A DNA stretch of 64,000 nucleotides from Chloroflexi bacterium B3_Chlor. GTDB taxonomy: Bacteria; Chloroflexota; Anaerolineae; UBA7937; B3-Chlor. Position 1 is the stretch's first letter; each line of letters opens with the position of its first letter. Shown here piece after piece: positions 12,809-32,882 of this stretch. Both the position numbers and the translations under genes were made by a program. A model generated the notes under the pieces. It ran no database searches and had not been told where the DNA came from. It saw only the letters and a program-made list of their open reading frames with translations. The stretch covers positions 62,001-126,000 of the forward strand of contig NJBK01000002.1 in assembly GCA_005223035.1 (NCBI GenBank), written 5' to 3'.

Positions 12809-13074
12809 CTGTGACTACTGTCTCCTTCTGGGGCTGCGGATGGGTATTGCGGCAATGACCGTCTTACGTCCTCTGTGGTCAGTTCCCGTGGACCCGTGTC
12901 CAGGATCGCTCGGGCTCCCCTAGAGAAGGGGGCTTTGTGCTGGAGATGTCCAGCCAGTTCGTTCATCAGAGGAGGCAATTCGCCTTCCCCGACAGTCACC
13001 ACCAAGCCCTCTTTTGTGCCCTTCATGGATATCCTATGGTCGGGTTCTGGCTTCGGTTTCCTCGCCATGAGCAC
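12805..13074 (-). CDS. Short MinC N-terminal-domain-like protein
   Basis: An 89-residue protein between mrdA and rodA. The stretch ISMKGTKEGLVVTVGEGELPPLMNELAGHLQ, followed by FSRGARAILDTGPRELTTEDV, resembles the N-terminal FtsZ-antagonising domain of MinC. The C-terminal MinD-binding beta-helix domain is absent and the frame ends in a short polar tail. Start GTG 13074 (GAGG about ten nt upstream) or ATG 13068. It overlaps rodA by 4 nt and follows mrdA by 12 nt, so it is translated in step with the wall synthases. It could be a decayed minC or a free-standing domain with its own role. Confidence 0.6.
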   Translation of the reverse strand: MLMARKPKPEPDHRISMKGTKEGLVVTVGEGELPPLMNELAGHLQHKAPFSRGARAILDTGPRELTTEDVRRSLPQYPSAAPEGDSSHR

Positions 13075-13086
13075 TGTGGTCTTGCC

Positions 13087-15030: not shown

Positions 15031-15040
15031 CTCGAAGCCG

Positions 15041-15069
15041 ATTATACGTCAGTCCAGCCTCTCTTACAA
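15041..15069 (-). promoter_or_regulatory. Promoter of mrdA-minC'-rodA-gltX-tRNA-Gln
   Basis: Minus strand TTGTAA, a 17-nt spacer and TATAAT. It places the 5' end of the message near 15034, a few nt from the start codon of mrdA at 15030. Confidence 0.7.
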
Positions 15070-15159
15070 GATCAAGGTGATGAAGATTCCCCACATCTAG
15101 TACCTTGATGTTCAAAGCCCACAACGTACAGAATCCGACTGCGGAAGTTTACATAACTT

Positions 15160-18100
15160 CTAAGGCACTATTTCCATCAGCTCAATCAATACTCTGTTGT
15201 CGGTGGGGGTACCTGAAGGACTGAGAACTTGCAGCCGTTCCATGGTCCGGAGGAGGTACAAACCGACCTCGATTTGGTAGAGTCCCAAGGGTGCACTCTT
15301 GTCAGTCCATACGGTGTGAGAGTCCAGCACCATCTCTCCTTCTCGCCACCGGCTGGTAGGGTAGGTGCCGTAGACAGGCTGTATGTCCTCCTGGCCCCAG
15401 ATCTGGTCATTCTCGTCCAGGATATGAACAAATACTGTGTAGTCTTCGTCCACGGAGGTCAGGGCTTGCCAGGTTAGGGTCAGTTGCAGGCCTCCGCCCT
15501 TTCTCACGTGGACATTGTGAAGTTCGTAATCAACGAGTAGGATCTTGTTCTCGAAATTGACAGGCAAGTGCTCTCTATTGCCAGATCTCCTGGGCAGGTC
15601 CTCGACGTGAATGCTGGCAAGGACGGCCCGATCCTCCTGACGAGCCAGCCAGCCGTTGAATACCGGCACAGTACGGTTGCTCGCGGAATCCTGCAGGGCA
15701 ATTCGTAAACAGAGTTCGCCGGAGGCTCTGGAAGGTATCGTCACCTGGTGGGTGTCGGCCAGCAACTGACCCTCGGTCCAGCCGGAGGTTGGATACTCGC
15801 CGAATAGAGGGGGTTCGATGCTTTGCCAAGAGATGTCGCCGTTGGATTCCATCAACTCCAGCGCCACATTGTAATCGTGAGTGACCTGGCCAACCCCTTG
15901 CCAGTACAGCGTCAAGGGGATTTCCGCTGCAGGATGGCCAGTTGATGGGAAGTCGTATCCAAGGAGCATAATCTGGTTATCGAAATTGGCTCGCAAGGGA
16001 TGCTGGATGGGGGGAAACCATGCCGCCGGGTGAGAGATGGAGACTTCTGCCAGGGTTAGATAGTCCTCCCCAGTATCGAGCGGGGCGAGGCCCTCCTGGC
16101 CGAAAGGGGTGAACAAACCTGCCTGCAAGGCATACTTACCAGGGGGCAGCAGACCTGCCAGATCCAGCTCATGGAAATCGGGTATGATCTCTCCAGGATG
16201 CCAGGCCGCAGTCGGGTACAGGCCTTTCACGGGCGGCCTCCCCTTGGTCTGATACCAGATGTGGCCGCTAGGGCTCTTCAGACGTAGTCGAACATCGTAG
16301 TTCTGTGGGGCACTTTCTGGGGCTTGCCAATATAAGGTGACACGCAAGGTGTCCGTAGCACTGACGTCGGGCGAATCGAGACGATAGCCTCGCAGTAGGA
16401 TCTTGCCTCCAAAGTCGCTGTCCAAGCGTGAGAGGTTGGAGGGCAATTCCGTCAGCATTTGAGGATTCACCTCTACAAGGGGGCCCAGGGAGCGCAGGTG
16501 GTAGGTCGTCTCTAGGCCCGGCAGGAAGCGAGCCAGGAAAACGCGCCTACCCTCGCTCAGCCTCCTTTCCAGCTCCCCGCGGTTACTCTCCTCGTCCGGA
16601 AAGACTCCGGCTTCGGTGTCTGGCCGCACTCCCTCCACCTTTTGAAGATAGTAAAGCGGCGCTATCCTCTGACTGTCAGCCAGGATGACAGCCGCCGGAG
16701 GAAGTTCCTGCTCTAGGACGTATCGACCCCAGTCGTACCACGCGTATTCGTCGCTTCTGTCCACCCTTGGCATGTTGATCCAGACAAGACCCATGGGAAG
16801 TAGGCCAGCAAGGGTCAACGTGGTAGACTGAACTAGGAGTCTTCTCGTTGACAGCGCTATTCCAGGTATGCGAGCTAGGAACTTCTCCGCCAATTCACCT
16901 AGTGAAGTGACGCCAATCCCCAAAGCTATGGCGATGATCAGGTGGGATGGGATTAGGAAAAGGGAGACATCGGGGACGTAGTAGCCCAAGCCGAAGAGAA
17001 CGTAGGCGATGAAAGCCGTCACCAGGAAGACACCCTCCTTCCAGCCGGGATACCGAGCCGGGGATCTGTTGGGCCAGAGCAACCAGATGATGCCAGCGAG
17101 AGCCAGGACTAGCGCAGGGACTGGGTACTGTTCCAAGAGGATTCGCAGGTAGATGAGCAATCGATCGGGTCCTCGTAGCCAAGCATCCCACCGTAGTGCT
17201 GCGGAGAACTGAGTGCCCAGCACAAGGTTGGTGAACTCTGTCCATGTGATCATCCTGCCGTGGATTTGCCACCACCTGAGCGGTATATAGAGATGAACAC
17301 CTAGGAGCGGTGCAACGAAGGCGCTCGCCAAAGTGGCGATGCGCCGGACATTCAGCAGAGAGCGCCCTCTCTTGAGCAGCACATAGGCTACAATGGCAGG
17401 GCCCAACAGAACCATGGTACGATGATGGGTCAGGCTGAGACCATAGATGAAAGATGTTGCACATATGAGTGCTAGCACCTGATTTGCGGCGCCGAACGCT
17501 GTGATCCTCGTGATGGCCGTGGGTGGCGTGGCCTGGGTCTGGGCATCTGACGCATCAACTGGCTTCTCGTGGAAGCAGCGGAGCAGCAGGTAGCAGATCG
17601 ACACGACGAAAAGGGCGTTGAGAGCATACACCTCGGCCACAACTGCCTGAGACCAGAGCGAGTGGCTGAAGGCAAAGGTTAGCGCGGCCAGGGCACTCGT
17701 GGATCGGTGCCCTGTCAGATGATAGATGGTGGCGTGCACTACGGCTGCCGTGGTCGCAGCAAATAGAGCCGATGATAGGTTCACGCGATAGGCCACGTTT
17801 CCAAGAGGCAGGAGCGTGAAGAGCTTCCCCAGCAGGATGTACAACGGATACCCGGTAGGATGAGCGACGCCCAATTCGTAGGACAAGACCTGGAATTCGA
17901 AGGTGTCATGCTCCCCCACTGTAGGAGCCAACGTGATCAAGTATATCGCAAGGGGCACCAGGAAGACGGTTGCCAGGACTGCCCTGTCAAGCCACTCTCT
18001 CCCCAGGAACTCGGCCAGCTTCTGTGATGCCACCAGTGCAACGGAGCCGAGAAGGAGCACACGGGCCTGAATAGGGTTTACCTGTGGACGAAGCAAATAG

Positions 18101-18369
18101 AGGACCAGAAGGAGAAGGGGGAGATAGGAGAGTGCATCGGCCAGCAGCGTATCTGTTCTGGAAGCGCGCCTGCTCAGCAGGAAACGACCAAGCCACATGG
18201 TGAAAGTCACTAGTGCCATCAGGAAGACCGTCGGCATCCAGTGGTAGAAGACTGAGAAGTAGGAATGACCGCTTTCGGCCAGGAAACGACTTAAGAAGGC
18301 TCCCACTATCAAGCTCGTGAGCAAGACAAGGGGGAAACCACTGCTTGGCTTGTAGGCCGTGCTGTGCAT
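15160..18369 (-). CDS. DUF2723-type membrane glycosyltransferase-like protein with three C-terminal beta-sandwich repeats
   Basis: A 1069-residue protein. Residues 1 to about 550 hold many TM helices and the DUF2723 signature LAPTVGEHDTFEFQVLSYE followed by LGVAHPTGYPLYILLGKLF, with an acidic residue in the first outer loop, as in protein O-mannosyltransferase-like GT-C enzymes. The outer part after residue about 640 contains three copies of a roughly 120-residue domain (NFxNKILLxxY, LTLxWQA, GxYPTSxWxEGE, DxHxV). It should sit in the membrane with the repeats outside. Its ATG directly follows the TAG of the upstream gene (0 bp), with GGGGGA as SD. A lipid-linked sugar donor is likely (family knowledge); acceptor unknown. 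Confidence 0.8.
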   Translation of the reverse strand: MHSTAYKPSSGFPLVLLTSLIVGAFLSRFLAESGHSYFSVFYHWMPTVFLMALVTFTMWLGRFLLSRRASRTDTLLADALSYLPLLLLVLYLLRPQVNPIQARVLLLGSVALVASQKLAEFLGREWLDRAVLATVFLVPLAIYLITLAPTVGEHDTFEFQVLSYELGVAHPTGYPLYILLGKLFTLLPLGNVAYRVNLSSALFAATTAAVVHATIYHLTGHRSTSALAALTFAFSHSLWSQAVVAEVYALNALFVVSICYLLLRCFHEKPVDASDAQTQATPPTAITRITAFGAANQVLALICATSFIYGLSLTHHRTMVLLGPAIVAYVLLKRGRSLLNVRRIATLASAFVAPLLGVHLYIPLRWWQIHGRMITWTEFTNLVLGTQFSAALRWDAWLRGPDRLLIYLRILLEQYPVPALVLALAGIIWLLWPNRSPARYPGWKEGVFLVTAFIAYVLFGLGYYVPDVSLFLIPSHLIIAIALGIGVTSLGELAEKFLARIPGIALSTRRLLVQSTTLTLAGLLPMGLVWINMPRVDRSDEYAWYDWGRYVLEQELPPAAVILADSQRIAPLYYLQKVEGVRPDTEAGVFPDEESNRGELERRLSEGRRVFLARFLPGLETTYHLRSLGPLVEVNPQMLTELPSNLSRLDSDFGGKILLRGYRLDSPDVSATDTLRVTLYWQAPESAPQNYDVRLRLKSPSGHIWYQTKGRPPVKGLYPTAAWHPGEIIPDFHELDLAGLLPPGKYALQAGLFTPFGQEGLAPLDTGEDYLTLAEVSISHPAAWFPPIQHPLRANFDNQIMLLGYDFPSTGHPAAEIPLTLYWQGVGQVTHDYNVALELMESNGDISWQSIEPPLFGEYPTSGWTEGQLLADTHQVTIPSRASGELCLRIALQDSASNRTVPVFNGWLARQEDRAVLASIHVEDLPRRSGNREHLPVNFENKILLVDYELHNVHVRKGGGLQLTLTWQALTSVDEDYTVFVHILDENDQIWGQEDIQPVYGTYPTSRWREGEMVLDSHTVWTDKSAPLGLYQIEVGLYLLRTMERLQVLSPSGTPTDNRVLIELMEIVP

Positions 18370-21171
18370 CTAGTCCCCCGCTCCGATCGCTGCGAGTTCA
18401 AGCCAGCCGTCTAAGACGCCTGCGTCAGCCGCCGTTGTCACAGGTACCTTCTTCTCGTGTGAGTCGAGCAGCGCTAACTGCAGTACGTAGTTGCTCGGAG
18501 GGAAATCCTTGCCGATCCAAATGCTGTGATTATCCCTCACAATCTCTCCCTCTTCCCACAGCCTGGTGGGATACCTGCCCGCCGAGGGCTCGGCGGAGTG
18601 ATCCAGCGCCACTTCGTCATCCTGATTCAGGAGGCGAATGGCTACGGAATAGTTGCTATCCAGTGGCTTCCTCGCTCGCCAGAACAGCGCCAAGCGGTAG
18701 AAATCCCCACGGATCAGATGATCTCGTTCCGCGGTATAACCAAGTAGGGTCATGCCATTATCGAAGTCCATTGTGACCCGTTCTTGGATTCCCAAGGCCT
18801 CAATGCTCGGAGGTCTATCGCCTTTGAAGATGGTGATATCTTGTAGGAAGTACATGCCCGCCTGATGCTGCTCTTGTCCTATCACGGGAAGGCGCGTCAA
18901 GGTTACGGGGTTGTATAGCCCCACACCGAGAAGGTATTTCCCCGGCGGGGTGCCTGGCGGCACGACGATTTGGTGAGGATCCTTGTTGTACTCATCCAGT
19001 TCCCAATACCGCGTGGGATACCGACCGGGGTTGAGGCTATCCTTCTGAGCGTAGATGTTCATCTCTTCGTCAGCGAGATGTGCAAACGTGCTATAGTCGG
19101 TGGTAAAGCTCTGGCGGGCCTTCCAGTACAGATTGAGGCTCAAGGTATCTCCGGGATGCAAGTCAGCTGACGGCGGGTCGTACCCCAAGAGCGTGATCTG
19201 GTCACCGAAGTTGACCTGCAGTGGAGTGTGCGCTCCCGCAACCTGGGAACCATCGAAGTCTTTCTTGAACCACGTAGCGTACCTATCTATGCATGCTACT
19301 TTGAGGCCCAAGAGCGTGATAGCTATGAGGGCCAGAACTACCCCCTGTTGGCCATTAACCCGGTCGGGCCTTCCCTTTTGGCGGGCAAAGGTGCACCTCG
19401 TCTCGAAGACGGAGTTGGCCAATCTTGCCAGTGATGGAGTTAGTACTGGGCCCAAGCCCAGCAGAACAAGCACCATGGCGCTCAGTCCGGTGATGAGTTT
19501 GGACAGCGTGTGGACTGGCAAGTCTTCAAAGCGAAGGCGGACAACGTGTTCACCGGCTGGCACGAGGACGCTGATCAGACCCTGTCCATGGGTTGGTGTG
19601 ATGCTGGTCTTCTGTCCGTCCACATAGGCCTGCCAGCCTGGAAAGTAGAGACTATTAAAGGTGGCCTGGAAACTCCCTGGCGTGGCCAGCCGTACTGTCA
19701 TGGAAGTGGGTTCGTACTGGGCACTCGTAACTCGAACTCCAAGGGGAAGGCTGGCTAGGTCCAATCTCTCGATCGTAGCGGACGACCGGTACATGGGTTC
19801 CAGAGGCGAGTTGCTGGGTATCCATTCTGCCCAAATGGGAAGGTACTCGCCAAAAGAGGTTGTTCCAATGGTGCCAGTTCGTCGTTCGAACTCCATCATG
19901 TGGACAAATGAGGGGTTGAGAGGTAGGTCACGATACAAAGGCGGGTAGAGGAGCGAGAATGTGGAGACAATGATCATCGCTATGGAGATGATCGTCACCG
20001 CGAAGGACGGGGAAAAGGTGCGGTTGTTGTCGGGGAAGAGGCGGGCGACGGTGCCACACAGAATGGCCACAACGAGGCTCCCAAGACGCAAGAAACGGTG
20101 TGGAAACACCAGGTACTTCAGCAGAGGCAGATTCTCCCAAACGAAAGCTGACTGAGGCAGAAGCATGAATACGACAACGGCCAAGCTGACCATGGATATG
20201 CTCAAGTGTACGAGTTCGTGAGACCGACGATGCCTCCACAGGCCAACCACGGAGACAACCGAGAGCGATACGAAGACTGGGCCTAGGTTGTTGGGCACGC
20301 CCGGGTTCATCAGTCCTGTATCCGCTGTTGGCGAAGGGGCAAGCAGTTCGCCTGGGGAGACGAAATGGGTGTGATAATCGAGATCAGGGGGAGTGATCAT
20401 GCGATCCAGTTGCACAAACTGCCTGTGCGAAAGGGCGGGTACCCAGAAAAAGGCGGCGAGTCCCGCGCCGACGAGCACGGCAATAGCTGTGCGAGTGGCC
20501 GCACTTGCGCGCTCTTGCGCTTTCAGAGAAATGAGGACTACTACGAAGAATGTCAGGAAGGGTATGAATGTCAGGCTGGCCGGGTTATGTGTAAGAATCG
20601 AAGCAGCAAACAGGAGGGTGCCCGCCATGAAGTACCGTGTCGCGCCTGTTTCGATCAGGCGCCGAAAGCTCCACAGCACCAGCGGATAGAGCACCATGGA
20701 CCATGCTCCTGGAAGGTGACCACGGAAGAGAATGTCATAGAGGTGAAACGGAGCATACATATAGGCTACTGCGGATAGCATCCCCGCCTTGGGGCCAAAA
20801 ATGTCTTCCACAAAGAAGTACATCGCCACCCCGGACGCCAGAAGGCTCAAAGCAAAGGAGAGGAGCAAGGTCTGAATCAGACTCAGCCCCAACACATGGA
20901 GTATCTCCGTGAGATAGTATGGCAGAGCAGGGACGTATTCGAAGATGGGGTAGCCGTAGCCGAAGAAGAGGTCTGGTGCCCAGCGCGGAAACAGAGTCCC
21001 TTGCCCCAGCAAGTGACGCAGTTCAAGGAGACGGTAGAGATGGAACAGCCCATCAAAGCTGCGCGGCAGGCTTGATTTCCATAGCGGCCAGGATGCTGGC
21101 AAGCCCAACAGGCAGATGATGATAGGTGCCCTGGCACACAGAGCTGCGTTCTTCAGTCGTGTCCTGATCAC
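18370..21171 (-). CDS. Large polytopic membrane protein (PTPS-related/YfhO-like) with two beta-sandwich repeats
   Basis: A 933-residue protein. The first about 400 residues are polytopic (for example LAVVVFMLLPQSAFVWENL) with an early outer-loop DGLFHLYRLLELRHLLGQG motif of GT-C-like proteins. Around residues 490-580 comes a periplasmic-type domain with LYFPGWQAYVDG and VLVPAGEHVVRLRF and then a TM helix. After another TM segment two copies of the YPTRxW/DxH domain follow, the same as in the downstream gene. GTG start at 21171; it begins 15 bp after mreD and abuts the next gene. The whole looks like an envelope glycan-building pair placed inside the shape operon. Confidence 0.75.
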   Translation of the reverse strand: MIRTRLKNAALCARAPIIICLLGLPASWPLWKSSLPRSFDGLFHLYRLLELRHLLGQGTLFPRWAPDLFFGYGYPIFEYVPALPYYLTEILHVLGLSLIQTLLLSFALSLLASGVAMYFFVEDIFGPKAGMLSAVAYMYAPFHLYDILFRGHLPGAWSMVLYPLVLWSFRRLIETGATRYFMAGTLLFAASILTHNPASLTFIPFLTFFVVVLISLKAQERASAATRTAIAVLVGAGLAAFFWVPALSHRQFVQLDRMITPPDLDYHTHFVSPGELLAPSPTADTGLMNPGVPNNLGPVFVSLSVVSVVGLWRHRRSHELVHLSISMVSLAVVVFMLLPQSAFVWENLPLLKYLVFPHRFLRLGSLVVAILCGTVARLFPDNNRTFSPSFAVTIISIAMIIVSTFSLLYPPLYRDLPLNPSFVHMMEFERRTGTIGTTSFGEYLPIWAEWIPSNSPLEPMYRSSATIERLDLASLPLGVRVTSAQYEPTSMTVRLATPGSFQATFNSLYFPGWQAYVDGQKTSITPTHGQGLISVLVPAGEHVVRLRFEDLPVHTLSKLITGLSAMVLVLLGLGPVLTPSLARLANSVFETRCTFARQKGRPDRVNGQQGVVLALIAITLLGLKVACIDRYATWFKKDFDGSQVAGAHTPLQVNFGDQITLLGYDPPSADLHPGDTLSLNLYWKARQSFTTDYSTFAHLADEEMNIYAQKDSLNPGRYPTRYWELDEYNKDPHQIVVPPGTPPGKYLLGVGLYNPVTLTRLPVIGQEQHQAGMYFLQDITIFKGDRPPSIEALGIQERVTMDFDNGMTLLGYTAERDHLIRGDFYRLALFWRARKPLDSNYSVAIRLLNQDDEVALDHSAEPSAGRYPTRLWEEGEIVRDNHSIWIGKDFPPSNYVLQLALLDSHEKKVPVTTAADAGVLDGWLELAAIGAGD

Positions 21172-21186
21172 CTAATCTCTTCTTAC

Positions 21187-21660
21187 TCAGAGCTCCATCT
21201 CTTCCGGGAGCGTTCTCCGGTGAAGCCAGGCCAGGGCCCGATAGACGACAGGTATCAAGAGGCTGCCAAGTAAGGCGGTTGGCATCGTAATCTGTAGCAG
21301 CACGTCGCGCCAAGGCACGAAATGCCCGGTCACGGAAAGCACTGTCATCAGGATGCTGTCGTGGACGATGGTCGCTGCGAGAGCCACAGCGGAGGGGAAC
21401 AGCGGACTCGTGCGGTACAGGGTCAGTTGACCAAGGCTGGGGAGATATCCAATGAGGGTCAGGGCGAAAGCGCAACTACCAAGCGGTGCGCCCGACAGAA
21501 AGTCAAGAGCCAGGCCGCCCAGGAATCCCCAAACAATGCCTTCTCTTGCTCCCCTCAACAGGCTCCAAGACACCACTACGAGAAGCATGAGGTTAAGGCG
21601 TGCGCCTCCCAGGGAGAAGCGGAACAGCACAGACGATTGTATAAGGGCCAGGCCAGCCAT
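21187..21660 (-). CDS. mreD: Rod shape-determining protein MreD
   Basis: A 157-residue hydrophobic protein with about five to six TM segments (LMLLVVVSWSLLRGAREGIVWGFLGGLALDFLSGAPLGSCAFAL is the MreD core with its G..LDxxSG..LG pattern). It is the membrane partner of MreC in the elongasome. It lies 48 bp after mreC and 15 bp before the 933-residue membrane protein gene. Identification rests on the fold pattern plus the mreB-mreC-mreD order. Confidence 0.88.
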   Translation of the reverse strand: MAGLALIQSSVLFRFSLGGARLNLMLLVVVSWSLLRGAREGIVWGFLGGLALDFLSGAPLGSCAFALTLIGYLPSLGQLTLYRTSPLFPSAVALAATIVHDSILMTVLSVTGHFVPWRDVLLQITMPTALLGSLLIPVVYRALAWLHRRTLPEEMEL

Positions 21661-21708
21661 TAACGGGACGACGGCGTAAGTCCTGATAGGTAGCTACCTC
21701 TGCAGAGC

Positions 21709-22545
21709 CTACTCGCCACTCTCGAAGTCGATGGGCTCGAAGCTTGTGAGGACCATGACCATTTCCAGCTGCCGGAAATCCACGGCGGGTCTTACCTCGG
21801 CTTCTTGGAACGTTTCGACATCCTTCTTCATTACTGCTGTTACTTGTCCAATGATCATCCTGGTAGGGAAGTTGCCGCCCAGTCCAGAGGTAAGGACTAA
21901 GTCGCCGTCTTTGATCTCCTCCGTTTGCTGGATGTACCTCATGACCAGTTCTTGCCCTATCCGTCCTTGCACTACTCCTGTGGCGCGCGAATCTTGAATC
22001 AGGGCATTGACTGAACTGCTTGGGTCGGTTATGAGAAGAACTTTGGAGGAGTGCGGGTTGGATTCCGTTACCCTTCCCACCAAGCCCCTATGCGTCAGTG
22101 CCGGCATGTCTACGGCAACGCCCTCTGCGGTGCCACGATCAATGATAAGATAGCCCACGAGACCACTAGGGTCGTGGCCGATGACCTCGGCTGACAGGAG
22201 TTCGAAGGAGGGGTTGGCCTGCTTGAAGTTCAGATGTTCTCGCAGAGTCACGTTTTCGATCTCAGCCTCACGCAGGCGCACATTCTCAATGATGAGTTGA
22301 TCGACAAGCTTCTGCAGATCCTCGTTCTGCGCCCTGCAAGCCTCAACATCCGTGAGGAACTGGCGTACGTTAGTGACTCTTCCCCCAAGGGAGGTAAGTC
22401 CCTCCTGTATGGGAGCAGCGACCTGGGCCACGAGGTTCTTCACGGGCTGCAAGCGGTTCGTTCGGTCAAGGATCAAACCCATTACGGCCAGTGAGAGAAA
22501 AAGGAGGAGGAACAACGCGATTCCTCCTCGCTGAAACCGAGACAA
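21709..22545 (-). CDS. mreC: Rod shape-determining protein MreC
   Basis: A 278-residue bitopic protein that links MreB inside to PBP2/RodA outside. It has a short cytosolic N-terminus, one TM helix (IALFLLLFLSLAVMGLIL), a coiled-coil stretch (about residues 60-110: CRAQNEDLQKLVDQLIIENVRLREAEIENVTLREH) and the double beta-barrel with the typical AEVIGHDPSGLVGYLIIDRGTAEGV, LVGRVTESNPHSSKVLLITDP and DLVLTSGLGGNFPTRMIIG. It follows mreB by 15 bp. Confidence 0.94.
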   Translation of the reverse strand: MSRFQRGGIALFLLLFLSLAVMGLILDRTNRLQPVKNLVAQVAAPIQEGLTSLGGRVTNVRQFLTDVEACRAQNEDLQKLVDQLIIENVRLREAEIENVTLREHLNFKQANPSFELLSAEVIGHDPSGLVGYLIIDRGTAEGVAVDMPALTHRGLVGRVTESNPHSSKVLLITDPSSSVNALIQDSRATGVVQGRIGQELVMRYIQQTEEIKDGDLVLTSGLGGNFPTRMIIGQVTAVMKKDVETFQEAEVRPAVDFRQLEMVMVLTSFEPIDFESGE

Positions 22546-22560
22546 GAGCGCCTCCTCGCA

Positions 22561-23622
22561 TTAGCGCCGTGTATTGCGGCGTTGAGTGGTGGTGAGCACG
22601 TGGCTCAACGTGTCCAGGTGTTCGAGGACTATTCCTCCACCTCGCACTACGCAGGTGATCGCATCATCGGCCACGTACACGCGCATCTTGGTCTCATCGG
22701 CGAGGCGTTCGGCTATCCCCTTGAGAAGAGCGCCACCGCCTGCCAGAGCTACCCCTTGTTCCATCAAGTCAGCGATCAACTCTGGTGGGGTTTCCTCAAG
22801 AGTGGTCTTGACCTCATCGACGATCATGCCGACAGGAGGCGACAGAGCTTCGCGGACCTCGACGCTGCTGATCTCCACCGCTTCCGGCAGGCCAGTAATG
22901 AGGTTGCGCCCTCGTAGGGTCATAGTCTGTTCCTCCTGAAGAGGATAGGCTGAGCCAATGGCTATCTTGATCCGTTCCGCCATGCGTTGGCCGATCAGTA
23001 GATTGTACTTCTCGCGGGCATAGCGCATGATCTCCTCATCCATCTCGTCTCCGGCTATCCGGAGAGAGCGGCTGGCGACTATGCCTCCAAGGGAGAAGAC
23101 AGCCATCTCCGACGTTCCTCCTCCGATGTCGACGATCATGCTTCCCACCGCCTCGTTGATCGGGAGGTCGGCTCCTATCGCTGCGGCGGTAGGTTGCTCA
23201 ATGAGCAGAGTCTGCCGCGCACCGGCGTTGCTACACGCGTCGTGTACGGCTCTCTTCTCTACCTCGGTGACTCCACTGGGTAGACCCACCACGACGCGAG
23301 GCCGTGGAACGGGCAGGAGGGCACGCTCGTGGACCTTCCTTATGAAGTAGTGAAGCATTCTCTCGGTGACATCAAAGTCCGAGATCACTCCGTCACGAAG
23401 AGGCCTGATCGCCACTATGTTGGCCGGCGTACGCCCTACCATTTCCTTGGCTTCGTCGCCAACGGCGAGAACCTTCTTGCTCTTCTTCTCAATGGCGACG
23501 ACGGATGGTTCGTTGATCACGATTCCTTGACCTCGCACCAATACAAGTGTGGTGGCCGTGCCCAAGTCAATGCTGATATCCCGGGAGAACAATCCCAAGA
23601 TGGCGTTCAAAGGACTAAACAC
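22561..23622 (-). CDS. mreB: Actin-like rod shape-determining protein MreB
   Basis: A 353-residue bacterial actin that guides lateral wall synthesis. Actin-fold nucleotide motifs: IDLGTATTLVLVRG at the N-terminus, VDIGGGTSEMAVFSLGG near residue 165, and LAGGGALLKGIAERL at the C-terminus; VVGLPSGVTEVEKRAV is a typical MreB stretch. Start GTG 23622 with GAGGAG seven nt upstream. It lies 43 bp after rplY, whose promoter probably also drives the mre genes. Confidence 0.97.
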   Translation of the reverse strand: MFSPLNAILGLFSRDISIDLGTATTLVLVRGQGIVINEPSVVAIEKKSKKVLAVGDEAKEMVGRTPANIVAIRPLRDGVISDFDVTERMLHYFIRKVHERALLPVPRPRVVVGLPSGVTEVEKRAVHDACSNAGARQTLLIEQPTAAAIGADLPINEAVGSMIVDIGGGTSEMAVFSLGGIVASRSLRIAGDEMDEEIMRYAREKYNLLIGQRMAERIKIAIGSAYPLQEEQTMTLRGRNLITGLPEAVEISSVEVREALSPPVGMIVDEVKTTLEETPPELIADLMEQGVALAGGGALLKGIAERLADETKMRVYVADDAITCVVRGGGIVLEHLDTLSHVLTTTQRRNTRR

Positions 23623-24584: not shown

Positions 24585-24631
24585 GTCTACTAAACTCAGG
24601 CCACACGTTGGCATCATTGGAGAATATGTGG

Positions 24632-27256
24632 ATGAAGCCGACGAGCAGCGCAGAGATAAGGGAAGCCTTCTTGGATTTCTTTGCTCAGAGAGGGCACTTA
24701 GTTGTTCCTAGTTCTTCTTTGGTGCCAGAGGGCGATCCGACTCTGCTCTTCACCGGAGCTGGAATGGTGCAGTTCAAACCGTATTTCTCTGGTGAAGTGG
24801 AGCCGCCCTCGACACGTCTCGCTTCCGTGCAGAAGTGCTTTCGCACCACAGACATAGACAAAGTGGGTAACGAGCGGAGCCTGACTTTCTTCGAGATGCT
24901 CGGCAACTTCTCTATCGGGGACTACTTCAAGAGAGGCGCCATCGAACTTGCGTGGGAGTTCGTGACGGAATCCTTGGAGTTGGCCGAAGACAGTCTCTGG
25001 GCTAGCATTTTCCATGACGATGAGGAAGCCTTTATCTTATGGCAGGAAATCGCCTTGCCGGCCACAAGAATAGTGCGCCATGGCAAGGAAGACAATTTCT
25101 GGGGCCCTGCCGGCGACACGGGGCCCTGCGGCCCCTGTTCGGAGATCTTCTATGACCGTGGTCCTGACGTAGGTTGTGGGCAAGAAGACTGTGCACCTGG
25201 CTGCGACTGTGAGCGCTTTCTAGAGGTTTGGAATCTGGTTTTCATGGAGTATGACCAAGACTCGGAGGGCGGCCTTACGGCTCTGCCACGACAGAACATT
25301 GACACGGGGATGGGGCTGGAGCGAACTGCGGTGGCGATACAGAACGTTGGGTCGGTTTATGAAACCGATCTCTTTGCTCCTATTGTGGCCAAGGCTGGTG
25401 ACCTGGTGCAGAGATCGTACGGAGACAACGATGTGGCGGATCGTTCGCTGCGCATTATTGCAGAGCACGCGCGTGCGGTCACTTTCCTCGTCGCAGATGG
25501 CGTCCTGCCGAGCAACGAAGGCCGCGGATACGTTCTACGGCGCATCTTGCGTCGCGCCGTGCGGCACGGAAAGGTATTGGGAAGGGAAGAGCCCTTCTTG
25601 GAGGAGATCACCCGGGCAGTGATCGGGCTGATGGGAGAGCAATACCCCGAGCTGAGCGACCGACAAGACTTCATCTTGGGGGTGCTGGCCCAAGAGGAGA
25701 AGGGTTTTCAGTATACCCTGGGTGTCGGCTCGGCCCTCTTGGAAGACTTGCTCGCCGACATCTCTTATTCAGGGAAGGCCCAGATCCCAGGAGAGGAGGT
25801 CTTTCGGCTGTATGACACCTATGGGTTTCCTGTGGAGCTAACCAGAGAGATGGCTGCCGAGAAGGGGCTCGAGCTCGACGAAGAGGGCTTCGCGAAAGCC
25901 ATGGTCGAGCAACGCGAACGGGCGAGGAAGGCGCAGGCCTTCGGATTGGCGAGGGAGAGTGAATTCTACCGCCCCTTAGAGCTGCCGCCCACCGATTTCC
26001 TCGGCCACGAAAGAGTCGAGACGACGACCGAGGTCATCGACTTGGCGACGGATGACCGAGTTGTGGATGAGGTGGTCGAGGGGGAGCAAGTTGCGGTGGT
26101 CCTCAAGGAGACGCCCTTCTATGCCGAGGCTGGCGGACAAGTTGGTGACACTGGCAAACTGAGCGATGCTGGCGGCGAGATAGCGGTGTCGGACACCCAG
26201 AGCCCATTGCCGGGGCTTATCGTCCACTATGGCAACGTCGGGCGCGGATCGCTCCACGTGGGCGACGTGGTAGTCGCCAAGGTGGATGTGGACAGACGTC
26301 TGGACATAGCGCGCAATCATACAGCCACCCATCTGTTACACAAGGCTCTGCGGGAGATCTTGGGAGAGCACGCACAGCAATCCGGATCTGAGGTCGCGCC
26401 CGAGCGGCTACGCTTCGACTTCACACATCTGCAAGCTCTGAGCGACGATGAGCTGCACTTGATAGAGAGGCGAGTCAACGCCAGGATCAGAGACAACCTC
26501 CCGGTAGTGACTCGAGTCACAGATTATCAGACGGCGATCGCTTCTGGTGCTTTTGCCATTTTCGGCGAGAAGTATGGCGAGAGGGTTCGGATGGTTAGTA
26601 CGGGTGACTACACTCGCGAACTCTGTGGCGGGACGCACCTGCAGGCCACTGGTCAGATAGGCGTCTTTCACATCTTGAATGAGGGTAGCATCGGGAGGGG
26701 CCTACGTCGTATCGAGGCCTTGACAGGTCGCGGAGCCGAGGATTACGTACACCGAAGCCTACTTCTCCTCGATGGGATAGCCTCCAAACTGGGAGGGTCG
26801 ACCGCTGAGGTTGAAGTCAACTTGAGCGCCCTCTTGTCTGACATGGAGTCTCTACGAAAGGAGATACTGGAGCTGCGGCGACGGCTGGGCAGAATCGAGA
26901 TGAGTAGGGTGCTGGAGGAAGTCCGCGAAGTGGATGGCATGAAGGTGCTCGCCGCTGAGGTTGAAGCCTCCAGTATGGAGACACTGCGGGAGATGATTGA
27001 TTGGCTGAGAGACCGGTTAGGATCAGCAGTAATAGTGTTGGGCGCTGTGATGGATGGAAAGCCAGGCTTCGTCGCCGCGGTCACCCCCGACCTCGTTGAC
27101 AAGGGCCTGAAGGCTGACCGTCTTATTAGGGAGGTTGCAGCAGTGGTCGGTGGAGGGGGGGGCGGGCGCGCAACCTTAGCTCAGGCGGGAGGAAAGCACC
27201 CTGAGCGGATAAACGAGGCTTTGAGCTTGGTGCCCGACTTGGTGACCGGGCGCTAG
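24632..27256 (+). CDS. alaS: Alanyl-tRNA synthetase
   Basis: An 874-residue class II synthetase. N-terminal MKPTSSAEIREAFLDFFAQRGH and the catalytic core (CFRTTDIDKVGNERSLTFFEMLGNFSIGDYFK), then the editing domain with its zinc site HTATHLLHKALRE and CGGTHLQATGQIG, and the C-terminal DHHA1/C-Ala part with a glycine-rich GGGGGGRATLAQAGG. ATG 24632 is used because GGAG lies nine nt upstream and the protein then begins as AlaRS usually does; TTG 24608 and ATG 24626 have poor spacing. It is transcribed alone or with the following FtsA-like gene (73 bp gap). Confidence 0.97.
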   Translation: MKPTSSAEIREAFLDFFAQRGHLVVPSSSLVPEGDPTLLFTGAGMVQFKPYFSGEVEPPSTRLASVQKCFRTTDIDKVGNERSLTFFEMLGNFSIGDYFKRGAIELAWEFVTESLELAEDSLWASIFHDDEEAFILWQEIALPATRIVRHGKEDNFWGPAGDTGPCGPCSEIFYDRGPDVGCGQEDCAPGCDCERFLEVWNLVFMEYDQDSEGGLTALPRQNIDTGMGLERTAVAIQNVGSVYETDLFAPIVAKAGDLVQRSYGDNDVADRSLRIIAEHARAVTFLVADGVLPSNEGRGYVLRRILRRAVRHGKVLGREEPFLEEITRAVIGLMGEQYPELSDRQDFILGVLAQEEKGFQYTLGVGSALLEDLLADISYSGKAQIPGEEVFRLYDTYGFPVELTREMAAEKGLELDEEGFAKAMVEQRERARKAQAFGLARESEFYRPLELPPTDFLGHERVETTTEVIDLATDDRVVDEVVEGEQVAVVLKETPFYAEAGGQVGDTGKLSDAGGEIAVSDTQSPLPGLIVHYGNVGRGSLHVGDVVVAKVDVDRRLDIARNHTATHLLHKALREILGEHAQQSGSEVAPERLRFDFTHLQALSDDELHLIERRVNARIRDNLPVVTRVTDYQTAIASGAFAIFGEKYGERVRMVSTGDYTRELCGGTHLQATGQIGVFHILNEGSIGRGLRRIEALTGRGAEDYVHRSLLLLDGIASKLGGSTAEVEVNLSALLSDMESLRKEILELRRRLGRIEMSRVLEEVREVDGMKVLAAEVEASSMETLREMIDWLRDRLGSAVIVLGAVMDGKPGFVAAVTPDLVDKGLKADRLIREVAAVVGGGGGGRATLAQAGGKHPERINEALSLVPDLVTGR

Positions 27257-27329: not shown

Positions 27330-28628
27330 TTGCGTAAGTTATGGTCCACGGTAGTGCACGGACGTGTGACCGACGGGGAGCGGCCGGCCTACAGCAGTGT
27401 CCTCGACCTAGGCACTGAGCAGGTCAAGGCGCTCGTGTTGGAGTTGCACGAAGGCGAATGTATCGTGGTTGGTGTGGGCAGGGCGCTCTGCGAGCAGCAC
27501 GATTCACGGGCGCATGGAGCAGTCGCGGACCTTCCGACGCTGGCAAGATCCTGTGATCGGGCTCTTCGTGAAGCGGAGGATATGACTGAGCGGCACTGCG
27601 ATACACAGGTTGTGCCCGACTGCGCGGTAGTTGGTCTGCCCAACCATGTGACCACTGCCCAAACTCTCTCGGTTACGAATCAGCGCTCGAATCCGGAGAA
27701 ACGGGTGAGTGATGGGGAATTGACGGAGCTTCTAAAACGGGCTCAGCGTCTGGCTCTACGACAGCTGGGCCGAAGAATTCGTCACATCCAGCGCGCTCAG
27801 CAGGAAGAGGTCGAGTTGTTGGAAACATCGGTGGCAGATATTCAGATTGACGGGCGCCGTGTAACCACCCCCCTCGGTTTCCGCGGCCGAAGGCTTACGA
27901 TCTCAGTGAGTAACGTCGTGGTTTCGTCTTCCTATCTGAGAGCCATCGAAGCGATGACCGAAGAGCTGGGTTTGGAGCTCATGGCGACAGCATCGGGTTG
28001 GCAAGCACTGGCTTCCATATTGAGCGAGAAAGAAGGGATATGCATAGATATCGGCGGTATGGCTAGCGACGTTGTGGTGGTCCGCAACGGCAAGGCCTGG
28101 GAGACCGCCAGCATTCCCTTGGGAGGTAGGCACTTCACAAGACATCTGGCCCAGACTCTTGGACTCTCTTGGAGGGATGCGGAGAGCTTGAAGTTAGCCT
28201 ACAGTCGTGGAAGGGTCCAAATGCCTGCCGAGGACGACGTGCGCGCGGCCATGAGTCGGGTGCTGGACGCATGGGTGGGAGAAGTTGAAGGGACTCTGAG
28301 GAGACTCTGCGGCCCTGCTTCTCTGCCACATCGCTTCTGTCTCTGTGGCGGAGGAAGCAGCTTGCCCGGTATTGTGAATACCCTACGTTCTTATCCTTGG
28401 ATGGAAAGACTGGATTTCTCGCGCCATCCTGAGGTGCAATTGATGCAACCCTGGGAAATCGCCACTGTACTTGACAGAACTGGCCGGTTGGCGGACCAGC
28501 AGGACATCTCGCCTATGGCTGTCGCCAGCTACGTGATGAGTGGCGATTCCAAGACAGATCCCTTGGGACGAGTGTTGTGGGCCGTCAAGAGACCTCCGAT
28601 CTTCACGGGCAGGGGAGGGAACGCTTGA
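27330..28628 (+). CDS. FtsA-like actin-fold ATPase
   Basis: A 432-residue actin-superfamily protein. Phosphate-1 motif in SSVLDLGTEQVKALVLEL (about residues 22-39), phosphate-2 in ICIDIGGMASDVVVVRNG (about 230), and adenosine motif CLCGGGSSLPGIVNTL (about 338). Between the first two is an insertion like the SHS2/1C domain of FtsA (VVGLPNHVTT ... LLETSVADIQIDG). The C-terminal tail is not clearly amphipathic. Start TTG 27330 with GGGAG eight nt upstream. Its stop overlaps the TTG of the next gene, an envelope protein with one TM helix, so the pair looks like a cytosolic ATPase plus membrane partner. True FtsA, PilM-like or a separate branch are all possible. Confidence 0.7.
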   Translation: MRKLWSTVVHGRVTDGERPAYSSVLDLGTEQVKALVLELHEGECIVVGVGRALCEQHDSRAHGAVADLPTLARSCDRALREAEDMTERHCDTQVVPDCAVVGLPNHVTTAQTLSVTNQRSNPEKRVSDGELTELLKRAQRLALRQLGRRIRHIQRAQQEEVELLETSVADIQIDGRRVTTPLGFRGRRLTISVSNVVVSSSYLRAIEAMTEELGLELMATASGWQALASILSEKEGICIDIGGMASDVVVVRNGKAWETASIPLGGRHFTRHLAQTLGLSWRDAESLKLAYSRGRVQMPAEDDVRAAMSRVLDAWVGEVEGTLRRLCGPASLPHRFCLCGGGSSLPGIVNTLRSYPWMERLDFSRHPEVQLMQPWEIATVLDRTGRLADQQDISPMAVASYVMSGDSKTDPLGRVLWAVKRPPIFTGRGGNA

Positions 28629-30181
28629 ACCAGCTAGAAGTGATATACCTCGACCCCAGCGACACTTCTGGGGTCATCCGCGAGCACGTCAGGGGCGCGG
28701 AAGAGAAACGGATACTCCTGGTGGTTCCGAAGAACTGCCCCGGACTTGATAGCCTGGTTGATCTGAAACTCTTGGGGCGATACGTCATTGCCTTGGACAA
28801 AGAAGTTGCTCTGGTGACCCGAAATCGCGAGTTGGTACAGTCAGCTCGAGGGCTCGGCTTTCGCACCTTTTCGTCCGTACGGGCAGGGCAACGAGCAAAG
28901 TGGAAGGGCTCCCATACTCTTGTCCTTGATTCGTTTGGCATACAACCTTCACAGGGCCTGCTAGGCAGGGCGATCCCCGCTCAGTCGAGATCGCAGCCTC
29001 TGAGGCTCGGCGAGATCGGAGTCTTTTCTCTAGCGTTCCTGGCAATGGTAGTTTTCATGGCTTTCATCCTAGTAGTACTTGTGCCCACAGCGACAGTGAC
29101 TCTTGAGCCAGTAGCCTATCCGGTCAGTACCACGCTCACTGTACAAGCCAATCCCGATCTGGAGAGTATCGACTTCATCAGTCTTCGCATACCAGCCCGG
29201 GTGGTGGAGATGGACCTCGTCGGTAGCGAGGAGATGGCGACTACAGCCATCAGGGACGAACCCGACGCAACGGCTACCGGAGAGGTGGTCTTCACGAACA
29301 AGCGCACCCAGGCTACCACCGTCTTGTCTGACACGATTGTGAGCACCAGCGCCGGTACCACCATTCGCTTCCGCACTACCGAGCCAGTCACCCTTCCGCC
29401 AGGAGTGGGCACCAGGCGTAGGGCCCCGATAGAGGCCATTGAGCCTGGACCGAGCGGCAACGTCCCCGCATACTCCATTAACAGGGTGGAAGGGCCAATG
29501 GATCGGCAAGTGAATGTCATCAACGTCGCCCCCACTGAGGAAGGGGGCATGAGTGAAGTCAGATATGTGACTAATGCCGACAAAGATCAGCTCAGAGAAT
29601 CCTCGTTGCAGCGGCTCAGGGAAGAGGGGTACGACGCTTTGATGGTGGAACTCACCGGGGAAGAGTTCTTGCCCCCCGAGTCCTTGATGACCTTTGCGTT
29701 GTCGGAGACGTATGACAAGTTCCCGGACGAGGTTGCTGATTCTCTCAGCCTGCACATGCGGGCCTTGGTCAGGGGAACGGTCATTGACAGGGCAGATGTC
29801 GAACTCCTGGGGTCGCGTATGCTCCAGTTCGAGGTGCGAGAAGGATTTCAGCTTCTGTCTGAAGAGACGGAGTTTCACGTAGAGGAAGTTAGTGAGGCTC
29901 AGTATGATGGGACTCTGACTTTCCGGATGAGGGCCGAAGGCGTAACCTGGGTGGAGATTGACGAAGCTAATATCAGAGAGGGCATAAGAGGTAAGTCTGT
30001 GAGCCTGGCGGAGGAGTATCTAGCGCGACATCTGAGCCTTGTGCAAGGCCCATCGGTCCGAGTTTCACCAGAATGGTGGGGTCGGGTTCCATGGCTACCT
30101 TTTCGCATTGCCATACAGGTGCTGTCGGGTGGAGGCACGGGTGACGAGGCAACCAGATCACGGAGGACCGTGTGCGTTTGA
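28625..30181 (+). CDS. Single-pass envelope protein ('baseplate J/gp47-like' annotation class)
   Basis: A 518-residue protein starting at TTG 28625, overlapping the previous stop, with GGGGAGGGA as SD. Residues 1-110 form an alpha/beta cytosolic domain (KRILLVVPKNCPGLDSLVDLKLLGR, EVALVTRNRELVQSARGLGF). A TM helix follows at about 140-165 (IGVFSLAFLAMVVFMAFILVVL), then a large beta-rich outer part with repeated strands (TATVTLEPVAYPVSTTLTVQ, ATGEVVFTNK, AGTTIRFRT). Proteins of this shape are often labelled baseplate J/gp47-like, but there are no phage genes here. It is coupled to the FtsA-like gene, and yqgF overlaps its end by 10 nt. Confidence 0.6.
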   Translation: MNQLEVIYLDPSDTSGVIREHVRGAEEKRILLVVPKNCPGLDSLVDLKLLGRYVIALDKEVALVTRNRELVQSARGLGFRTFSSVRAGQRAKWKGSHTLVLDSFGIQPSQGLLGRAIPAQSRSQPLRLGEIGVFSLAFLAMVVFMAFILVVLVPTATVTLEPVAYPVSTTLTVQANPDLESIDFISLRIPARVVEMDLVGSEEMATTAIRDEPDATATGEVVFTNKRTQATTVLSDTIVSTSAGTTIRFRTTEPVTLPPGVGTRRRAPIEAIEPGPSGNVPAYSINRVEGPMDRQVNVINVAPTEEGGMSEVRYVTNADKDQLRESSLQRLREEGYDALMVELTGEEFLPPESLMTFALSETYDKFPDEVADSLSLHMRALVRGTVIDRADVELLGSRMLQFEVREGFQLLSEETEFHVEEVSEAQYDGTLTFRMRAEGVTWVEIDEANIREGIRGKSVSLAEEYLARHLSLVQGPSVRVSPEWWGRVPWLPFRIAIQVLSGGGTGDEATRSRRTVCV

Positions 30182-30618
30182 TGGCGCTGGACATCGGGGA
30201 TAGACGGATAGGAGTTGCCCTGAGTGATCCTGGACAGACATTGGCGCGTACTCTCCAGGTGATTCGACGTCGCTCTCTGAACGCAGATATGTCGGTTATC
30301 GTAGCCCTCGTGACAGAGCACGAGGTCGAGAAGATCATTGTGGGTCACCCACTTCAGTTGGACGGGACATCGGGAGAGCAAGCGTGCAGCGTCGAAGCGT
30401 TTGCTGCAGAGTTGCGGGAAGTGCTGGCCATCCCGGTCATTCTATGGGATGAGGGATTCTCCACGATTCGCGCCCGTCAGCTGATGATTGAGGCTGGCAC
30501 AAAGCGGAAGGACCGCAAAAGCCGGATTGACGCGGTTGCGGCCGCTGTGATCCTACAAGACTACCTGGATTCCCTCAAACTGGAGAGGGCTATCCCTTGG
30601 GAGGAGACAACGTTGTGA
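30172..30618 (+). CDS. yqgF: YqgF/RuvX family nuclease (putative pre-16S rRNA nuclease)
   Basis: A 148-residue RNase H-fold protein. It shows ALDIGDRRIGVALSDP at the N-terminus (first acidic residue), IVGHPLQLDGTSGEQ, LWDEGFSTIRARQLM and the C-terminal SRIDAVAAAVILQDYL with the last catalytic Asp. The family is implicated in 16S rRNA 5'-end maturation and was earlier proposed as a Holliday junction resolvase. GTG 30172 has GGAGGA upstream and overlaps the preceding gene by 10 nt. Its TGA overlaps the GTG of mltG. Confidence 0.95.
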   Translation: MRLMALDIGDRRIGVALSDPGQTLARTLQVIRRRSLNADMSVIVALVTEHEVEKIIVGHPLQLDGTSGEQACSVEAFAAELREVLAIPVILWDEGFSTIRARQLMIEAGTKRKDRKSRIDAVAAAVILQDYLDSLKLERAIPWEETTL

Positions 30619-31754
30619 GAAGTGCGCTTCGTTGGGGACTCATACTTCTAGCTTTGGTGTTGACCATAGTTGTCATATCTGTCGGGGGCCAGTATCTCCT
30701 GGGCGGGAGAGGCTCTAGCGAGGTAGCTACTGGAGCGATAGAAACCTCGACACTGGAGAGGAGTCTGATAGGCATCTATCTTAACATCCGCCGGAACGAC
30801 ATAGAAACTCCGGCCAGTGATGACTCCACAGCAGTGGTATTCAGCATCAACCCCGGGGAAACGGCAGCCACGATTGGACCTCGCCTACAGCGTGAGGGTT
30901 TGATCAAAGATGCTCAGTTGTTCCTGTGGTTGGTTCGCTATCGAGGAGTCGATGCGCAGCTGGAGGCTGGAGAGTACGAACTGCGGCCCAGCATGACGAT
31001 AGGTGAGATTGTGGAAGCCTTGCAGCACGGGCGTCTGCGCGAGGTCTCGGTTACTATCCCCGAAGGGAAGAGAGCGGAGGAGGTCGCTGCTCTATTGGAG
31101 GAGCGAGGTTTGGTGGACAGCGAGGTCTTCATGTCCTTGGTGGGTTCAGGTGCTTTTGTACATGATTTCCTGTCTGATCACCCAGACGAAGCTCCTTCCT
31201 CGTTGGAGGGATTCCTGTTCCCCGAAACCTACAGGATACCTGTTGACTACGATGCTACGCAGCTGTTAGACCTCATGTTGACCACCTTCGGGGAGCGTTT
31301 CACACCGGAGAGGCGCCAACTGGCGGCTCAGAAGGGTTGGACTATCTACGAGGTGGTCACTCTCGCGTCGATAGTCGAACGTGAGGCGGTGATACCCGAA
31401 GAGCGCCCCATCATCGCCGGCGTATACCTCAACCGGTTGGAGCAGGGCATGTACCTTCAGTCCGATCCCACGGTACAGTACGCCCTCGGCTACCAGGAAG
31501 ACACGGGACAGTGGTGGAAGATCCCGATGTCGTTGGAGGAGGACGTGCCGTTCGACTCGCTTTACAATACCTATCTCTACCCAGGATTACCGCAGGGCCC
31601 GATATGCAGTCCTGGGTTAGCGTCGCTACAGGCAGTTCTGGAACCGGCTGAGACCGCGTACCTATTCTTCTTCTCCAAGTTTGATGGGTCCCACGCGTTT
31701 GCCGAGACCTATGAGGAGCACCTGCGCAACCAAGAGTTGTATCAGGGCCAGTAA
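30615..31754 (+). CDS. mltG: Endolytic murein transglycosylase MltG
   Basis: A 379-residue bitopic enzyme that cuts nascent glycan strands and is thought to terminate their growth. One N-terminal TM helix (LRWGLILLALVLTIVVIS), a LysM-like region (VFSINPGETAATIGPRLQREGLI) and the YceG domain with EGKRAEEVAALL, LEGFLFPETYRIP, the catalytic Glu in ASIVEREA, QSDPTVQYALG and the ending LFFFSKFDGSHAFAETYEEH. GTG 30615 overlaps the yqgF stop (GTGA) and has GGGAGGAG eight nt upstream; a TTG at 30597 would overlap the SD. Confidence 0.95.
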   Translation: MRSALRWGLILLALVLTIVVISVGGQYLLGGRGSSEVATGAIETSTLERSLIGIYLNIRRNDIETPASDDSTAVVFSINPGETAATIGPRLQREGLIKDAQLFLWLVRYRGVDAQLEAGEYELRPSMTIGEIVEALQHGRLREVSVTIPEGKRAEEVAALLEERGLVDSEVFMSLVGSGAFVHDFLSDHPDEAPSSLEGFLFPETYRIPVDYDATQLLDLMLTTFGERFTPERRQLAAQKGWTIYEVVTLASIVEREAVIPEERPIIAGVYLNRLEQGMYLQSDPTVQYALGYQEDTGQWWKIPMSLEEDVPFDSLYNTYLYPGLPQGPICSPGLASLQAVLEPAETAYLFFFSKFDGSHAFAETYEEHLRNQELYQGQ

Positions 31755-32882
31755 TTGCATCTCGTGAGAAAACTGTCTGTCCCTATTCTGATCTTCTCCC
31801 TGTTAGGATTCATCACAGGTTGCGGGCCTTGGGGATCCACACAACCCACGGTCAAGATCGGCTTGGTGGCTCCCTTCGAGGGCCTGTACCGTCCCTTGGG
31901 CTATGAGGTCTTGTCAGCAGTGAAGCTCGCGATAAGTGAGCGGAATCAGGCGGGTGGCGTGGAAGGCCACATGGTGGAACTGGTGGCACTGAATGACGAC
32001 CAAGACCCCACAGTGGCCGTCCGGCGCGCCCGAGAGATGGCTGTTGATGGGGACGTCGTAGGCGTCATCGGGCATTTCGGTGAGCAGACCACTCTGGCGG
32101 TCCTGTCAAGCTATTGCGAGGCTGGATTGGCGTTGGTGGTCCCAGCTTCCACGGCCACAGATGTCACAGAGAGTGGCTGTGGTCAGACGTTTCGCCTCGT
32201 AGCTGACGACGGTGTGCTTGGCGCGGCGGCGGCGCGCTATGCAGTGGTGCAGAGGGGTGCAAGGCGTCTAGCTGTTATTGGAGGCTCTGTAGATCTAGTA
32301 GATTCCTTCGCGTTCAGGGCGCGGCAGGAGGGCGCACTAGTCTCTCAACACCTTGACGATGATCGCGTAGCACTGTTGGCCGCGCTCGAGAGCGAAGGGC
32401 CCGACATGATCTTCTTTGGAGGAGAGGCTCTGGAGGGCGCGGAGCTGCTGCTGGAGCTAAGGGCGGCGGGATTGGACATCCCCTTACTGGGAAGCAATGG
32501 CCTGAACAGCCCTCACTTTGTTCAGGTTGCGGGGAATACCGCTGTCGGGACAGCTTATCTCAGCATCACTCCGCCGCTTGAGAGCGAGCACTTCAGCGAG
32601 GGATACGTGGCACCCGCGGGTGGTCCACCAGGGCCTTATGCAGCCTTGGCCTACGATGCTGCCCGTTTGCTTCTAGACGCTGTGGAGAGATCTATTGCCG
32701 TTGAGGGTAGGGCCACTAGGGAAGCTGTTGTGGTGGCACTCTCCGAGACTGAGGAATACGAGGGGCTAACCGGTCGTATCTCTTTCGACGAGAGAGGACA
32801 GGCACGCGAGCCACGGATCTACATATACGAAATCGTCGACGGGAAGTACCCCGGCCAGCTGCAAAGCTGTCCAGACTGTTAG
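31755..32882 (+). CDS. Branched-chain amino acid-type substrate-binding lipoprotein
   Basis: A 375-residue periplasmic-binding-protein fold I (LivJ/receptor-family) protein. It has a signal peptide with lipobox ITGC (KLSVPILIFSLLGFITGC), then KIGLVAPFEGLYRPLGYEVLSAVKLAI, QAGGVEGHMVELVALNDDQDPTVAVRRAREM, the ligand-cleft loop VVPASTATDVT and a C-terminal lobe. The TTG start at 31755 follows the mltG stop directly; GTG 31764 is an alternative. No permease or ATPase genes lie beside it. The ligand cannot be read from the sequence. Confidence 0.85.
   Translation: MHLVRKLSVPILIFSLLGFITGCGPWGSTQPTVKIGLVAPFEGLYRPLGYEVLSAVKLAISERNQAGGVEGHMVELVALNDDQDPTVAVRRAREMAVDGDVVGVIGHFGEQTTLAVLSSYCEAGLALVVPASTATDVTESGCGQTFRLVADDGVLGAAAARYAVVQRGARRLAVIGGSVDLVDSFAFRARQEGALVSQHLDDDRVALLAALESEGPDMIFFGGEALEGAELLLELRAAGLDIPLLGSNGLNSPHFVQVAGNTAVGTAYLSITPPLESEHFSEGYVAPAGGPPGPYAALAYDAARLLLDAVERSIAVEGRATREAVVVALSETEEYEGLTGRISFDERGQAREPRIYIYEIVDGKYPGQLQSCPDC

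Follow-up and report, generated by a model that had tools for sequence, protein, structure and literature searches.

Two adjoining genes, here called A and B, lie between alaS and mltG in the window, the 64,000-nucleotide stretch of Chloroflexi bacterium B3_Chlor DNA that we analysed, and they raise the question of whether an actin-fold protein and a single-pass membrane protein form an unrecognised cell-wall or division complex at this locus, as an initial annotation had proposed. The envelopes and division of Chloroflexota are poorly understood, and a near-universal protein B with an optional FtsA-paralogue partner is a candidate for such a wall complex. The A–B pair, which has been kept across Chloroflexota, appears to be a wall-associated complex of a kind not described before. 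The wall part of the proposal is supported in part, by the coupling of the two genes and by the absence of B from wall-less lineages, but a role in division is unsupported.

As the initial annotation had it, gene A encodes an actin-fold ATPase with an SHS2-like insert. The protein matched the Pfam FtsA family at 9.1e-17 and, weakly, SHS2_FTSA (0.021), and profile searches against solved structures reached FtsA (down to 7e-21) and PilM (1.5e-11). Its AF2 model (pLDDT 86.9) combines an actin fold with a 1C/SHS2 domain, and Foldseek placed FtsA first (7q6i_D, E 4.4e-26, TM 0.76 on target) and PilM next. By motif alignment, the phosphate-1, phosphate-2 and adenosine motifs are intact in the window copy (VLDLGTEQVKA, CIDIGGMASDVVV and LCGGGSSLP).

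Despite these likenesses to FtsA (TIGR01174 / PF14450), A is an FtsA paralogue that is distinct from the FtsA of this cell. The genome has a canonical murC-murB-ftsQ-ftsA-ftsZ cluster on another contig (C70), and its own FtsA scored 441.1 bits with the TIGR01174 equivalog model, whereas gene A scored 94.3 bits, far below the cut-off of 175.85. In an LG+C20 tree, A formed a separate clade (94/95) and canonical FtsA a clade of its own (100/100). Taken together, these results rule out A as the canonical FtsA, in keeping with the proposal of the initial annotation. Subdomain 2B is also shorter in A by about 19 residues, with a median of 26 residues compared with 45 in FtsA. In most A proteins from outside Anaerolineae, the C-terminus is a basic amphipathic helix (for example, LYGLMRKVLKAMKV) that resembles the membrane tail of FtsA. 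The window copy has an altered tail, in which a related segment, PLGRVLWAVKR, is followed by a short extension, and its N-terminus is amphipathic; this copy, too, may have a membrane tail. The nucleotide motifs are intact in nearly all rows of a slowly evolving, non-Anaerolineae subclade. In the fast subclade, which includes the window copy, they have decayed in about 7 of 22 rows. Some lineages can probably do without ATP turnover by A.

Features of the A–B locus; coordinates are positions in the window, and residue numbers of B follow the 534-residue open reading frame
Feature	Coordinates	Strand	Evidence
alaS, conserved upstream neighbour, housekeeping	24608..27256	+	Pfam, synteny
Gene A (432 aa), actin-fold protein of the FtsA/PilM type	27330..28628	+	Pfam, AF2 and Foldseek, motif alignment
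RBS GGGGAGGGA and the 4-bp TTGA in which the B start and the A stop overlap	28612..28628	+	Sequence read directly
Gene B (about 518 aa), membrane protein with one transmembrane helix	28625..30181	+	ORF, RBS, homologue alignment, AF2
B cytosolic alpha/beta domain, residues 20-106	28634..28894	+	AF2
B transmembrane helix, residues 144-168	29006..29080	+	AF2 helix and hydropathy
B outer beta-rich domain, residues 171-515, baseplate J/gp47-type fold	29087..30121	+	Pfam, PHROG, Foldseek
ruvX, ATG start at 30181 overlapping the B stop (TGATG)	30181..30618	+	Pfam RuvX 1.1e-42, synteny
mltG, endolytic transglycosylase, conserved neighbour	30597..31754	+	Pfam YceG 1.2e-87, synteny

The overlap of A and B is real, but it is shorter than the listed reading frames suggest. 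As listed, the B reading frame starts at a GTG (28577) and overlaps A by 52 bp. The true start is probably the TTG at 28625, which lies inside the stop of A (TTGA), 4 nt past GGGGAGGGA, and at which the closest relatives of B begin, so that the overlap is about 4 bp. Residues 1-17 of the longer frame are disordered in the AF2 model and missing from close relatives. This arrangement suggests that A and B are translationally coupled. The AF2 model of B (pLDDT 89.2) confirmed the predicted architecture of a cytosolic alpha/beta domain, one transmembrane helix and a large outer beta-rich part, with a low-confidence linker between the alpha/beta domain and the helix. The cytosolic domain gave no significant family in Pfam or in a PDB profile search.

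The outer domain of B has, in its predicted structure, the baseplate J/gp47 wedge fold. The Pfam Baseplate_J core (PF04865) was matched at residues 231-324 (3.5e-7; 30.2 bits against a gathering score of 21.1), and also in 30 of 34 relatives of B at E up to 1. The outer domain further matched the PHROG baseplate wedge family (PHROG 6, 1.6e-11), solved baseplate J proteins in a profile search (9.3e-6), PDB structures in Foldseek (8kea_b, 2.7e-8; 9g8s, 28% identity and 2.8 A over 103 columns) and viral models in BFVD (up to 9.2e-10). Alignments with wedge proteins extended over about 335 columns with a whole-length rmsd of 15-40 A; given this poor superposition, only the Baseplate_J core is firmly homologous, and the rest keeps the same order of elements. 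In an NCBI-type annotation, A would presumably be listed as FtsA-like and B as a 'baseplate J/gp47 family protein'. In the literature that we searched, no paper links baseplate J with FtsA or PilM, with Chloroflexota peptidoglycan or with kinases in this sense.

One possible explanation for this fold is that B is part of a contractile injection system or a remnant of a prophage, and a Roseiflexus contractile injection system does include a baseplate J-like protein, although one different from B (PMC12998442). In contrast to phage wedge proteins, B is membrane anchored, with a cytosolic domain and a transmembrane helix ahead of the outer domain, and it stands in a fixed housekeeping synteny with no tail genes around it. 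The genome has no second Baseplate_J protein, and tblastn with B gave weak similarity to the core alone in a phage collection and no relative among plasmids. Synteny and copy number thus largely refute this explanation, which is almost certainly wrong. PADLOC gave no defence-system match.

To follow the pair across the phylum, we used 121 Chloroflexota genomes that were at least 90% complete (the window's own genome is 85% complete), calling A present at E below 1e-80. B was found in 96 of these genomes and MltG in 107, and the same 107 have a PBP transpeptidase. B therefore occurs in 96 of 107 genomes with MltG and PBP and in none of the 14 that lack both, the B-less status of the last of these being deduced from its absence among the 96. 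A single loss of peptidoglycan genes has been inferred within Dehalococcoidia (PMC10284905), so the absence of B from the 14 wall-less genomes probably goes back to one evolutionary loss, or to few at most, and the Fisher test of B against the wall (p 6e-12) does not count as independent evidence. Among 59 relatives besides the window's own genome, most of them at class level, 53 have B, and the order alaS-(A)-B-ruvX-mltG is nearly constant; it is also conserved in the phylum-wide set. A scan of genome contigs with a peptide pattern returned 16 loci, all from Chloroflexota, the pattern being too narrow to exclude other phyla.

Protein A is rarer than B. It was found in 33 of the 121 genomes, in all of which B lies directly downstream, and in none without B; across 60 loci, the gap between the two genes has a median of 38 bp, and in some of them the genes overlap. 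The co-occurrence that the initial annotation had put forward as a check thus holds in one direction only: about 63 of the 96 B genomes retain B without A, which makes A accessory and the pair not obligate. The alaS–B gap is about 1.3 kb with A and mostly 4-160 bp without it, and this close abutment indicates that A is usually cleanly absent. One locus (L120) has a 1.3-kb gap and no detectable A, and diverged remnants of A lie between alaS and B in two others, L187 and L193 (L193:5798-7024); the L193 copy has lost its nucleotide motifs. These remnants look like stages on the way to the loss of A. On the B tree, the presence of A changes at least 11 times. The pair offers a picture of how an actin-fold ATPase degenerates and disappears from genomes that keep its membrane partner.

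The pairing of an actin-fold protein in the cytosol with a partner that crosses the membrane once recalls PilM-PilN of type IV pili, as the initial annotation pointed out, and the related GspL of type II secretion. In addition, a Chloroflexota archaellum has been proposed to have PilN/PilO scaffolds (PMC13319060). The pair could on these grounds be an alignment complex for an appendage (a type IV pilus, Tad pilus or archaellum). The likeness ends at the general geometry, since B joins an alpha/beta cytosolic domain to a baseplate-J-like outer domain, unlike PilN-type partners, and is itself near-universal. A did not pass the PilM models (29.6 against 133 bits for TIGR01175; 15.3 against 27 for PilM_2). 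PilM was found in 11 of the 121 genomes, none of which has A, and is absent from the window's own genome; a gene there that had been taken for PilM (G000:C24:29209-30180, at 29.3k of its contig) turned out to be a second MreB. Nor does the conserved neighbourhood of A and B contain any pilus genes. The PilM scores and the distribution of PilM rule out A as a PilM or pilus component, and we consider an appendage complex very improbable.

The neighbourhood of the pair includes a wall enzyme. The TTGA overlap of A with B and the TGATG overlap of B with ruvX suggest that A, B, ruvX and mltG are read as one translationally coupled unit, and the proposed linkage to mltG proved to be conserved across the phylum. 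Synteny of alaS, ruvX and mltG is old and general, so this linkage could be inherited and alone is weak evidence. MltG, a membrane-anchored wall enzyme, is not homologous to A or B, and its conserved position hints at a possible functional link. Directly after mltG, at 31755-32882, is a gene for a branched-chain amino-acid type substrate-binding lipoprotein, which is kept there in many Anaerolineae.

The reported lack of pilus and ftsZ genes holds for the neighbourhood within the window, but a minus-strand mreB-mreC-mreD...PBP2-rodA cluster lies 4 kb from A and B, and a second ftsZ is found some 30 kb ahead of the window on the same contig (C57; L012:6483-7778). The second FtsZ has GTPase and C-terminal domains, and its gene adjoins LysM and other envelope-type genes. 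The mre cluster raised the possibility of an elongasome-specific pair, but MreB is not required, as 12 of the genomes with A lack it and yet have a wall. A was enriched in MreB-less genomes (Fisher p 0.002), an association that is confounded by relatedness. Two MreB copies are usual among the MreB-bearing Chloroflexota of the set.

The second ftsZ bears on whether the pair is an alternative divisome module, in which A would act as an additional FtsA and anchor FtsZ, perhaps the second copy, at the membrane, and B would be an FtsN/ZipA-like division protein. FtsA is the closest fold of A, the A family has an FtsA-like amphipathic tail, and both FtsZ proteins of the genome end in a D[IV]PTFLR-type tail (DIPTFLRQRK in the canonical cluster and DVPTFLRRR in the second copy). 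MltG has itself been linked to division. However, binding of the FtsZ tail is the job of FtsA subdomain 2B, the part that is short in A. In addition, A is encoded with B, ruvX and mltG and not beside ftsZ, the canonical ftsA-ftsZ genes and the separate clade of A stand against a second FtsA, and A is often lost while FtsA stays. A divisome module is thus quite unlikely.

We also asked whether A depends on the cytosolic domain of B. In 12 genomes, which fall into three families, the part of B that the profile matches starts after, or late within, this domain, and none of these genomes has A. At equal divergence of the outer domain, the cytosolic domains were more alike in A-positive pairs than in the others (for example, 0.285 against 0.215 at an outer identity of 0.20-0.25). 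This likeness was associated with A (Mann–Whitney p 5e-4) but was not significant when relatedness was controlled for (three supported independent pairs). These sequence comparisons are no more than suggestive of contact between A and the cytosolic domain of B.

The outer domain is not confined to B. Among the loci examined, we found 19 cases, in two families with large genomes, in which a B-type outer domain and one transmembrane helix are joined to a Ser/Thr kinase (L197:3452-6178, L197:14037-16559, L255, L256, L260 and others); such fusions often adjoin paralogues with the alpha/beta domain. These fusions show that the baseplate fold has been reused as a kinase ectodomain, and they point to a receptor-like or assembly role for the outer domain, as a module that can be exchanged between cytosolic outputs. 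PASTA domains play such a role in PknB-type kinases. The ectodomain here is baseplate-J-like rather than PASTA, and the B protein of the window carries the alpha/beta domain and no kinase. In the two families (f58 and f73), tandem clusters hold up to four B-like paralogues.

By analogy with PASTA kinases, B could be a receptor-type signalling protein, with A a mere cytoskeletal passenger or output adaptor that has no fixed role in wall synthesis. The kinase fusions beside alpha/beta-type paralogues, the persistence of B without A and the decay of the nucleotide motifs of A in several lineages fit this possibility. By contrast, a single-copy B locus that is found with ruvX and mltG nearly phylum-wide suits a core role, and the alpha/beta domain matches no known signalling family. 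We regard a purely signalling role as unlikely, if worth keeping in mind.

The reading that we prefer, and hold with moderate confidence, is that A and B form an ancestral Chloroflexota envelope module, in which B is a wall-facing sensor or scaffold and A a membrane-bound, FtsA-derived organiser, the two working with remodelling of the MltG type. B would be inserted in a type-II-like manner, with the alpha/beta domain at the inner face and the baseplate-J-type domain towards the wall. The latter domain probably acts there as a sensor of, or scaffold for, peptidoglycan or an enzyme of the wall, MltG being the obvious candidate; B may also oligomerise. A would lie on the membrane through its amphipathic tail and dock on the cytosolic domain of B, clustering or positioning B as FtsA or PilM do their partners. 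Such a pair would add a third type of partner to the FtsA/PilM family. A broader scenario, which we offer as a tentative and somewhat doubtful extension, is that a phage baseplate-type domain was recruited in Chloroflexota as the extracellular half of a family of wall-sensing transmembrane proteins. The cytosolic side of these proteins would be read or clustered by a dedicated FtsA paralogue at sites of wall remodelling by MltG, in the ancestral and near-universal form, or by a fused Ser/Thr kinase in some large genomes, making up a second actin-fold envelope system that is independent of FtsZ and MreB.

The nearby mre/PBP2-rodA cluster (window positions 11699-23622, minus strand) is interrupted by two large membrane protein genes, one YfhO/PTPS-related (18370-21171) and one TMEM260-like, mannosyltransferase-like (15160-18369). 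This layout suggests that elongation is tied to surface glycosylation.
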